Shown here piece after piece: positions 24,931-42,173 of a stretch of DNA of 64,000 nt. The stretch spans positions 514,555-578,554 of the forward strand of contig NZ_LQMT02000010.1 of NCBI RefSeq assembly GCF_001620365.2, read 5' to 3'. The DNA is from Amycolatopsis keratiniphila subsp. keratiniphila (GTDB lineage: Bacteria; Actinomycetota; Actinomycetes; Mycobacteriales; Pseudonocardiaceae). Made by a program: the position numbers and the translations under genes. The notes below the pieces were generated by a model that was not told where the DNA came from, did no database searches, and was given only the letters and a program-made list of their open reading frames with translations. How positions within the stretch are numbered: position 1 is the stretch's first letter; every line of letters starts with the position of its first letter.

Positions 24931-26556
24931 TCACGCCGACGCCTCCCTGAGGGACTTGTGCACGAGCGCGTCGCACAGCGCCAGCCAGCTCGCCTCGACG
25001 ATGTTCCCGTGCACGCCGACGGTGGTCCACTCGCGCTCGCCGTCGCTGGTCTCGACGAGCACGCGGGTGACGGCGTCGGTGCCCGGATGGCCGGGCAGGA
25101 TCCGCACCTTGTAGTCGGCCAGCTCCACACTGTCCAACCAGGACAGATGCGGGCTGAGCGCCTCGCGCAGGGCGGCGTCGAGCGCGTGCACGGGGCCGTT
25201 GCCCTCGGCGGTCGCGATCACGCGCTGCCCGGCGACGTGCACCTTGACCGTCGCTTCGGAGACGACCTCGCCGTCGGACCGGTGGTCCAGGACGACGCGG
25301 TACGACTCCAGTTCGAACGGCGGTTCGTCGAGGACGTCGCTCTGCGGGCCGTCGACCTCCCGCCGCAGCAGCAGTTCCAGTGAAGCGTCCGCGGCTTCGA
25401 AGGACCAGCCTTCGGATTCGAGGCGTTTCACCTTCTTGACGGCGCTCGTCAGCGCATCGGGCTGGCCGGCAAGGTCGACCCCGAGCTCACGTCCCTTGAG
25501 CTCCAGGCTGGCCCTGCCGGCCATCTCGGTAACCAGTACCCGCATGTCGTTGCCGACCGAAGCTGGATCGATGTGGTTGTACAGCAACGGATCCACCTTG
25601 ATCGCGCTCGCGTGCAGTCCCGCCTTGTGGGCGAAGGCCGACGCCCCTACGTAAGCCTGGTGGGTGTAGGGGGCGATGTTCGCGATTTCGGCAAGGGCAT
25701 GGGAGACCCGGGTGAGCTCGGCGGCGCCTCCGGTCGGGAGGACCTCCATGCCGAGCTTGGTCACCAAGTTCCCTGTCACGGCGAAAAGATCGGCGTTACC
25801 CGCCCGTTCGCCGTAACCATTGGCGGTGCACTGGACGTGCGTCACGCCGGCCTGCACGGCGGCGACGGAATTCGCCACCGCGCAGGAAGTGTCGTCCTGA
25901 CAATGGATTCCGAGCCGGAATCCGGTCCTTTCCTTGACCTCGCGGACGGTTTCCGCGAGGCCGAGTGGCAGCCGGCCGCCATTGGTGTCGCACAGCACTG
26001 CGACGTCGGCGCCCGCGTTCACTCCCGCGTCGAGCACCTTCAGGGCGGTGTCCGGAGAGAACGCGTAGCCGTCGAAAAAGTGTTCCGCGTCGAGGAAGAC
26101 GCGACGTCCTTCGCCGACGAGGAACGCGACGGTGTCGCGCACCATCTCACACGCCTCGTCGACGTCGACCCGCAGCGCGCGTTCGATGTGCCGCAGATCC
26201 GACTTGGCCACGAGCGTGACCACCGGCGCCTGGGAATCGAGCAGCGCACGCACCTGCTGATCCTGCTCGGCCCTGGTGCCCACCTTCCGCGTCGCGCCGA
26301 AAGCGACGAGCGCGGCGTGACGCAGTTTCAGCTCGCCCGAAGCGGCGCGGGCGAAGAATTCCGTGTCCTTGGGCAGCGCGCCCGGCCACCCGCCTTCGAT
26401 GAACCCGACCCCGAGATCGTCGAGCAGCCTCGCCACCGCCAGTTTGTCCGTGACGGAGTAGGAGATCCCCTCGCGCTGCGCGCCGTCGCGCAACGTCGTG
26501 TCGTACAGATGGAAGGCGTCGCCGAGTGGCGTATCGGCGGGCTCCTTGCGGGTCAC
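24931..26556 (-). CDS. cimA: (R)-citramalate synthase
   Basis: The 541-residue enzyme belongs to the HMGL-like LeuA/CimA family: 'LYDTTLRDGAQREGISYSV' at residue 18 carries the catalytic Arg-Asp of the TIM barrel, 'GLHASAIKVDP' is in the linker region, and the C-terminal regulatory domain ends at 'LCDALVHKSL'. It condenses acetyl-CoA with pyruvate to citramalate, giving 2-oxobutyrate for isoleucine without threonine. Supporting this, its leader peptide contains three consecutive Ile codons. GTG 26556 has GAGGAGAT upstream. leuB, the next gene upstream, also acts in this route. A simple 2-isopropylmalate synthase role is less likely. Confidence 0.9.
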   Translation of the reverse strand: MTRKEPADTPLGDAFHLYDTTLRDGAQREGISYSVTDKLAVARLLDDLGVGFIEGGWPGALPKDTEFFARAASGELKLRHAALVAFGATRKVGTRAEQDQQVRALLDSQAPVVTLVAKSDLRHIERALRVDVDEACEMVRDTVAFLVGEGRRVFLDAEHFFDGYAFSPDTALKVLDAGVNAGADVAVLCDTNGGRLPLGLAETVREVKERTGFRLGIHCQDDTSCAVANSVAAVQAGVTHVQCTANGYGERAGNADLFAVTGNLVTKLGMEVLPTGGAAELTRVSHALAEIANIAPYTHQAYVGASAFAHKAGLHASAIKVDPLLYNHIDPASVGNDMRVLVTEMAGRASLELKGRELGVDLAGQPDALTSAVKKVKRLESEGWSFEAADASLELLLRREVDGPQSDVLDEPPFELESYRVVLDHRSDGEVVSEATVKVHVAGQRVIATAEGNGPVHALDAALREALSPHLSWLDSVELADYKVRILPGHPGTDAVTRVLVETSDGEREWTTVGVHGNIVEASWLALCDALVHKSLREASA

Positions 26557-26597: not shown

Positions 26598-26628
26598 AAA
26601 AAAACCTCCCGCATGGGTGCGAGAGGTT
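26598..26628 (-). terminator. Attenuator hairpin upstream of cimA
   Basis: On the minus strand AACCTC-CGC / GCG-GAGGTT forms a stem with one mismatch and a six-base loop, followed by seven U. It lies 41 nt before the cimA start and 26 nt after the leader peptide stop. This is the arrangement of a ribosome-mediated attenuator. Confidence 0.8.
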
Positions 26629-26654
26629 GCGCGCCGGGGGCTCTTGTGGAGCTG

Positions 26655-26696
26655 TTATCCGGCGTGCTCGGCGATAATGATGGTGCAGGAGGTCAC
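26655..26696 (-). CDS. Leader peptide of the cimA attenuator (Ile-Ile-Ile)
   Basis: GTG at 26696 opens a 13-codon frame, MTSCTIIIAEHAG, ending in TAA at 26655-26657. The three Ile codons in a row, followed 26 nt later by a Rho-independent hairpin and then cimA, are the classical design by which slow translation at scarce isoleucine prevents termination. No Shine-Dalgarno site is visible; the promoter position suggests a leaderless transcript that starts at or near the GTG. Confidence 0.7.
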   Translation of the reverse strand: MTSCTIIIAEHAG

Positions 26697-26702
26697 GGAC
26701 GC

Positions 26703-26731
26703 ATCATGGCACACGCTCTTCCCCTCGTCCA
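26703..26731 (-). promoter_or_regulatory. Putative promoter of the cimA leader
   Basis: On the minus strand TGGACG (26726-26731) and CATGAT (26703-26708) are spaced by 17 bp, and the -10 element lies 6 nt before the leader GTG. The match to the vegetative consensus is moderate, but the position mirrors the ilvB leader promoter. Confidence 0.5.
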
Positions 26732-26783
26732 CAACCCGGGCGACAGTTCCCACACTCCGGGACCACGCGTCCCTGCCGCCGAC

Positions 26784-26836
26784 GTTGCGAAAGCCACTTT
26801 CGCAACGTTGAAGGTTGCGAAAGTGGCTTTCGCAAC
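26784..26836. repeat. 42-nt-core palindrome, copy b
   Basis: Two perfect 23-bp arms flank a 7-nt loop. Each arm is itself almost a palindrome (GTTGCGAAAG / CTTTCGCAAC), so the element is nested. The core from AAA at 26790 to TTC at 26831 is exactly 42 nt. It lies between leuB and the cimA promoter, in tandem with copy c. Confidence 0.8.
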
Positions 26837-26900
26837 ACACCCCAGGCAAGGGTTTCTTCACGGGCCTGCCACCGCGCCCCCATCGCACCCTCACGCAGCA

Positions 26901-26942
26901 AAGGGGCCCTTCACCGCATGAGATGCGGCGAAGGGCCCCTTC
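26901..26942. repeat. 42-nt-core palindrome, copy c
   Basis: AAGGGGCCCTTC and GAAGGGCCCCTT are perfect 12-bp arms. One mismatch separates them from inner CCGCAT/ATGCGG arms, with a 3-nt loop. The core is exactly 42 nt (AAG 26901 to TTC 26942). It lies 12 bp after the leuB stop and could terminate leuB. Nearly the same sequence occurs after ilvC (copy i). Confidence 0.8.
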
Positions 26943-26954
26943 AGCCCGAAGAAA

Positions 26955-42055: not shown

Positions 42056-42092
42056 AAAAAACCCCCGCCGACCGGAGTGGTCGCACGAGGGT
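42056..42092 (-). terminator. Attenuator hairpin upstream of ilvB
   Basis: On the minus strand ACCC-CG / CG-GGGT outer pairs and CGACC/GGTCG inner pairs form a stem with a five-base loop, followed by six U. It lies 79 nt before the ilvB ATG and 27 nt after the leader stop. The leader can also pair internally: ACTTCCC with GGGAAGT, and two copies of GCGTCGACGC as alternatives, as needed for a terminator/antiterminator switch. Confidence 0.82.
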
Positions 42093-42118
42093 CGCGCGTC
42101 GACGCAGCGGAGACTTCC

Positions 42119-42166
42119 CTAAGCGTCGACGCGCTTGGGAAGTACGAGGCCGGTCTGCGTTGTCAC
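42119..42166 (-). CDS. Leader peptide of the ilvBNC attenuator (Leu-Val-Leu)
   Basis: GTG at 42166 opens a 15-codon frame, MTTQTGLVLPKRVDA, ending in TAG at 42119-42121. Leu-Val-Leu codons act as the sensor for branched-chain aminoacyl-tRNA supply. The predicted transcription start coincides with the GTG, so the transcript is probably leaderless. Overlapping alternative stems follow the peptide. Confidence 0.75.
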   Translation of the reverse strand: MTTQTGLVLPKRVDA

Positions 42167-42173
42167 GAGAGTG

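Follow-up and report, generated by a model that had tools for sequence, protein, structure and literature searches.

A predicted isoleucine-responsive attenuator ahead of the citramalate synthase gene cimA in Amycolatopsis keratiniphila and related actinomycetes

The citramalate synthase gene cimA of Amycolatopsis keratiniphila subsp. keratiniphila lies within the 64,000-nucleotide stretch of DNA analyzed here (the window), on its minus strand. It is preceded by a short open reading frame rich in isoleucine codons, a hairpin that we call P1 and an intrinsic terminator with a run of seven U, in this order (Table 1). We consider it very likely that this leader is an isoleucine-responsive, ribosome-mediated transcription attenuator, which senses isoleucine through charged tRNA-Ile and in which P1 serves as the antiterminator. 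If this assignment is true, isoleucine supply governs the citramalate synthase of actinomycetes in most of the class, and the pyruvate route to isoleucine gains support as an active, regulated pathway alongside threonine deaminase.

Results

The gene and its surroundings. The cimA product scored 572.7 bits against the TIGR00977 citramalate synthase model (cut-off of 450) and came nowhere near the cut-off of any 2-isopropylmalate synthase model. A dedicated LeuA is encoded elsewhere in the genome (877 bits over TIGR00970), as is a biosynthetic threonine dehydratase. The separate LeuA, the equivalog match and the codons of the leaders (isoleucine for cimA; leucine, valine and isoleucine for ilvB, see below) support a role of the enzyme in the biosynthesis of isoleucine rather than leucine, as had been proposed in an earlier, sequence-only reading of this DNA. 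The gene thus belongs to the pathway of the amino acid that its leader codons read, as is the case for leader attenuators. A scan for relatives of cimA placed A. decaplanina, among others, closest to the window. Between leuB and the cimA promoter, two copies of GCGAAAGCCACTTTCGCAAC (20 nt) in inverted orientation lie 27 nt apart (26787-26833); the genome has 143 forward and 137 reverse copies of this sequence, which makes it an abundant palindromic repeat. Another strong palindrome, AAGGGGCCCTTCGCCGCATC...GATGCGGTGAAGGGCCCCTTT, is located just past leuB (26897-26945) and is possibly the leuB terminator or a member of another repeat family.

Table 1. Features of the cimA leader region and of the related ilvB leader (positions in the window)
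Feature	Position	Strand	Remarks
leuB	28004-26955	-	Upstream neighbor of cimA, same strand
Candidate promoter	26703..26734	-	-10 CATGAT 26708-26703, extended context TGTG(G/C)CAnnnT; weak -35-like TTGTGG 26734-26729 (by eye only)
Leader ORF, 13 residues MTSCTIIIAEHAG (M-TSCT-III-AEHAG)	26655..26696	-	GTG 26696, TAA 26657-26655; predicted leaderless
Three control Ile codons ATC ATT ATC	26673..26681	-	14, 11 and 8 nt 5' of the P1 5' arm
P1 5' arm GCACGCCGG	26659..26667	-	Overlaps the final leader codons; one A.C mismatch at 26665
P1 3' arm CCGGCGCGC	26629..26637	-	RNAalifold fold and class-wide covariation
Intrinsic terminator hairpin AACCUCUCGCA CCCA UGCGGGAGGUU	about 26603..26628	-	RNAalifold, covariation, folding energy
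Terminator U-tract, 7 T	26598..26604	-	Read from the sequence
cimA, citramalate synthase, 541 aa	24931..26556	-	GTG start at 26556, GAGGAG ribosome-binding site; TIGR00977 equivalog
ilvB(NC) leader/attenuator, leader MTTQTGLVLPKRVDA	42056..42172	-	Second R1 match in the window, E = 4e-7

The leader peptide. The leader reads GTG ACC TCC TGC ACC ATC ATT ATC GCC GAG CAC GCC GGA TAA; its 13 residues and three consecutive isoleucine codons, as well as the terminator with its U-run and cimA behind it, are directly legible in the letters and had been recognized in the earlier reading. All of the 80 closest cimA loci, which come almost without exception from Pseudonocardiaceae, have a short ORF upstream in which two or more isoleucine codons follow each other. 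The run comprised two codons in 11 loci, three in 65 and four in 4, being at least three in 69/80. In Markov shuffles the longest isoleucine run was two in 3.3% and three in 0.1% of the cases, and neither the reverse strand nor the sequence 1 kb further upstream of the 80 loci contained such runs, the count there never exceeding one. Homologous isoleucine leaders were also found class-wide. The cimA leaders in the records of Rhodococcus rhodnii NRRL B-16535 (L039) and Nocardia sp. NRRL S-836 (L068) resemble those of Kibdelosporangium and Lentzea, and the organism names of these two records look doubtful.

The putative promoter. A plausible promoter just ahead of the leader GTG had likewise been suggested, and the comparison of leaders supports this. 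The CATGAT -10 element of the window ends 6 nt ahead of the GTG. An extended -10 (TGTGGCAnnnT type) is present in 97/132 cimA leaders, compared to 11% of shuffled regions, and in 86 of these 97 it is separated from the start codon by 6-8 nt. As the start codon follows a conserved -10 at this distance, leaderless transcripts are predicted, and the spacing suggests that transcription of the cimA leader starts at or beside the leader start codon. Leaderless transcripts are common among actinobacterial leaders (PMC8079986).

The two hairpins. RNAalifold analysis of 66 distinct aligned leaders gave two hairpins, P1 and the terminator. The earlier reading had the terminator hairpin right and missed P1, which sits between leader and terminator. 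On the 3' side of the leader TAA follow the loop, CCGGCGCGC, and then AACCUCUCGCA-CCCA-UGCGGGAGGUU-U7. The isolated segment of P1 plus terminator folds at -35.6 kcal/mol, with a z of -6.4 relative to dinucleotide shuffles. A class-wide alignment of 93 sequences, which was fitted to the covariance model and hence somewhat favors pairing statistics, had standard pairs in 97.7% of the cells and changes on both sides at 13/19 pairs (5/9 for P1 alone). Compensatory cells numbered 127, compared to 25 in shuffles (0 of 500), and shifting of the 3' partners by 1-3 columns lowered the pairing to 40-64%. Swapping of arms between sequences, an independent test, gave z values of -16 for P1 and -14 for the terminator, and lent convincing support to no pairing beyond these two. 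At position 26665 of the window, the leader has CAC (His), which creates an A.C mismatch in P1, the sole mismatch there among the 93 aligned copies. In Kutzneria sp. CA-103260 (L073 2354-2459) the leader ends early (MALHTVIIIS*) and P1 is retained, hence the RNA structure is separable from the coding constraint.

Occurrence with cimA. The covariance model R1 was built from the alignment of Pseudonocardiaceae leaders. Of 90 cimA genes sampled class-wide from 297 genomes, 73 are preceded by the R1 element, which is missing at the other 17 loci. An order-wide search found matches in 103/150 genomes at E <= 1, mostly far below this value, and all 30 of the loci retrieved from it are positioned before cimA. 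Leader, P1 and terminator are therefore kept before cimA both in Pseudonocardiaceae and class-wide, and the earlier reading decisively survived the conservation check in relatives that had been proposed with it. The R1-positive families include some that resemble, at a guess, Streptomyces and Streptosporangiales. The sampled genomes of one family (f2) contain no cimA above the cut-off and gave no R1 match better than E = 0.06. Families f19 and f27 have cimA above the cut-off, and none of their sampled genomes has such a leader (loci L083, L094, L104, L108, L110, L111, L116, L124, L134, L143, L155 and L163); control of cimA may differ in these two families. Rfam, searched at gathering and permissive thresholds with the window stretch and 14 related loci, returned no relevant family and no T-box match.

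A related leader before ilvB. The second R1 match in the window precedes ilvB and has the P1/terminator architecture of the cimA leader, with leucine and valine codons. Other genomes of the order also have a second R1 match, 8-13 kb from the first, which lies before ilvB in most of the cases identified. The geometry of 17 ilvB leaders is like that of cimA, and their control codons are for valine, leucine and isoleucine. Thus, as judged from the sequences, cimA and ilvB carry related attenuators, the codons of which match the amino acids that each enzyme serves. This correspondence between codon and enzyme is independent support for the notion that cimA serves isoleucine.

Geometry. In 129 of 133 automatically parsed leaders, an isoleucine codon precedes P1 by 10-13 nt as counted to its first base, with exactly 11 nt as the most common distance. 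The gap between P1 and the terminator stem is 0-1 nt in 125/133. The position of the stop codon varies, between 4 nt ahead of P1 and 23 nt past the start of the 5' arm. Bacterial ribosomes extend about 12 nt past the translated codon (PMC4833913); with the key isoleucine codon in the A site, the front edge would just reach P1, leaving P1 free. With the ribosome at the stop codon, the 5' arm of P1 would be covered for any of the stop positions observed. The fixed isoleucine-to-P1 distance and the wandering stop codon fit the need for a stalled ribosome to leave P1 free and for one at the stop codon to cover it. These observations also bear on a non-regulatory explanation, by which P1 and the terminator merely end the transcript of leuB and the isoleucine-rich frame is coincidental. 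The gene leuB is indeed upstream on the same strand and the hairpin is a good terminator. Yet the isoleucine run is far above chance, its distance to P1 is fixed, a conserved promoter sits between leuB and the leader, and the element accompanies cimA class-wide, with a related one before ilvB that has the matching codons. We regard this explanation as extremely improbable.

Proposed mechanism. In the attenuator model, transcription would begin at or beside the leader start codon, and the isoleucine-rich leader would be translated by a ribosome that trails RNA polymerase. With charged Ile-tRNA available, the ribosome would clear the isoleucine codons, reach the stop codon and cover the 5' arm of P1; the terminator would then fold and transcription would end ahead of cimA. 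When Ile-tRNA is scarce, the ribosome would stall on the isoleucine codons, its front edge stopping just ahead of P1, and the hairpin would be free to fold and to act as antiterminator, such that cimA is transcribed. The transcription start, the translation of the leader, the stalling and the antitermination step are all events that we infer. Since P1 would be free when isoleucine is short and covered when it is plentiful, and since the gene is biosynthetic, P1 should be the antiterminator.

The classical, trp-type arrangement assigns P1 the opposite role, that of an anti-antiterminator. A ribosome stalled at the isoleucine codons would block the 5' arm of P1, and the freed 3' arm or loop would pair with the terminator (2:3 or loop:4), resulting in read-through. 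The cimA region does have the leader, the control codons, the two hairpins and the terminator. For Corynebacterium ilvB-II, a loop:arm4 antiterminator has been proposed in which the P1 loop pairs with the right arm of the terminator (PMC10272879), and visual comparison shows a match between arm 4 (GGGGUC) and some Streptosporangiales-like loops (GGACCCC). However, the 2:3 pairing was worse within a sequence than with random partners (self -4.85 vs cross -5.10 kcal/mol, z +3.3), and on this self-versus-cross comparison we reject a classical 2:3 antiterminator for the cimA leader. Over the whole set, loop:arm4 pairing gave a z of -1.4, with 174/2000 permutations as good, which is not significant. 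Moreover, nearly all leaders have the stop codon beside or within the P1 arm, and P1 would therefore be blocked at both positions of the ribosome. In a thermodynamic simulation with a ribosome mask, the terminator was equally formed in every ribosome position and no switch was seen, some low minimum values in this simulation being probably due to register errors in the cut points; a terminator probability that is constant in any ribosome state also argues against the trp-type arrangement. As the defining 2:3 antiterminator is not supported, we do not class the cimA element as a classical trp-type attenuator, and we consider that scheme unlikely.

With regard to P1 as the antiterminator, the manner in which it would act on the terminator is the least certain step. 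The two hairpins have no bases in common, an extension of P1 into the base of the terminator was rejected, and no competing pairing with which the terminator could not coexist found support in the arm-swap tests. A weak signal was seen for pre:arm4 pairing (z -2.5, 7/2000), which may be due to shared ancestry. As no classical overlapping antiterminator is supported, we infer the action of P1 against the terminator, and we give an even chance to the proposal that P1 hinders it by abutment at the polymerase exit, without competition for shared bases. The broader proposition is that the whole cimA/ilvB leader family switches without competing base pairing, the hairpin abutting the terminator (0-1 nt) at the exit of RNA polymerase and the ribosome permitting or covering the hairpin; we advance it tentatively, as less likely than not. 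The same abutment could be read in terms of pausing. Here, P1 would be mainly a hairpin that pauses RNA polymerase to await the ribosome, and the timing between the two would regulate, with no RNA antiterminator. P1 ends right before the 5' arm of the terminator and would be at the polymerase exit while the terminator is made, and an alternative pairing was not found, both of which suit this account. A pure pause hairpin, however, would require neither a constant spacing of 10-13 nt between an isoleucine codon and P1 nor abutment to the terminator, and we hold this account to be improbable.

Discussion

The cimA and ilvB leaders would make a clean pair of related attenuators, one for isoleucine and the other for leucine, valine and isoleucine, in which codon identity follows the pathway. 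The leaders would offer a well-conserved system for testing the mutual exclusion of two abutting hairpins. The element may also matter in the engineering of isoleucine-, propionyl- or 2-oxobutyrate-dependent products of antibiotic producers.

A T-box binds uncharged tRNA directly. The T-box of actinobacterial ileS and the cimA leader would have in common the sensing of Ile-tRNA in the 5' RNA, which in cimA would be accomplished by a translated isoleucine leader instead. Leader-peptide attenuators known in actinobacteria belong to ilvB, leuA, trp and tRNA synthetase genes (PMC1262725), and of the eight reported in S. lividans none is for cimA (PMC8079986). The sequence-only reading knew of no described cimA attenuator in this group, and we found no published description of one in a literature search that excluded Lopatovskaya et al. 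2010 (Mol Biol 44:128), which could already predict one. The LEU element of actinobacterial leuA also places a leader peptide ahead of a paralogous synthase; it carries leucine codons and a pseudoknot and lacks a terminator (PMC1262725), whereas the cimA leader has isoleucine codons and an intrinsic terminator. The classical attenuators of E. coli trp and ilv share with cimA the leader peptide with control codons and the intrinsic terminator ahead of a pathway gene, and differ from it in that the cimA leader has no supported 2:3 antiterminator and a predicted leaderless start.

The closest likeness is to the leaders of actinobacterial ilvB(N/H)C (ilvL; Seliverstov 2005, PMC1262725; S. lividans, PMC8079986; M. 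tuberculosis ilvB1, PMC13236596). There, too, the leader is short, in many cases leaderless, and carries branched-chain control codons; several groups have (K/R)R(V/A)G at its end. As in these leaders, a GCGCG hairpin overlaps the end of the cimA leader, the control codons precede this hairpin by about 8-17 nt, and the terminator is 0-2 nt downstream of it. The ilvB location and the mixed Leu/Val/Ile codons are not shared; given its location at cimA and its isoleucine codons, the element is a relative of the ilvB-type attenuator and not the ilvB element itself. In S. coelicolor, regulation by the ilvB leader was reportedly unaffected by changes to the control codons (cited in PMC1262725), a result that counts against the attenuation reading of the cimA leader, as do the A.C mismatch in the P1 of the window's own copy, the 17/90 class-wide loci that lack the element, the lack of support for a pairing that competes with the terminator and the formation of the terminator in all ribosome positions of the simulation. 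In M. tuberculosis ilvB1, a ribosome at the stop codon masks the anti-terminator and stalling at LVVI permits it, and changing LVVI to AAAA abolishes induction (PMC13236596); this is the same logic as that proposed here for cimA. In C. glutamicum, the antiterminator hairpin of ilvBNC is beside the terminator with slight overlap (PMC11857589), and in ilvBNC and ilvB-II alike it is set against the terminator and begins just past the control codons, as P1 does (PMC11857589, PMC10272879). The three-hairpin ilvBNC leader differs in that its antiterminator hairpin and terminator overlap by a GCC trinucleotide, whereas those of cimA abut and have no bases in common. The cimA element would thus be an addition to the known branched-chain leader attenuators of actinobacteria.
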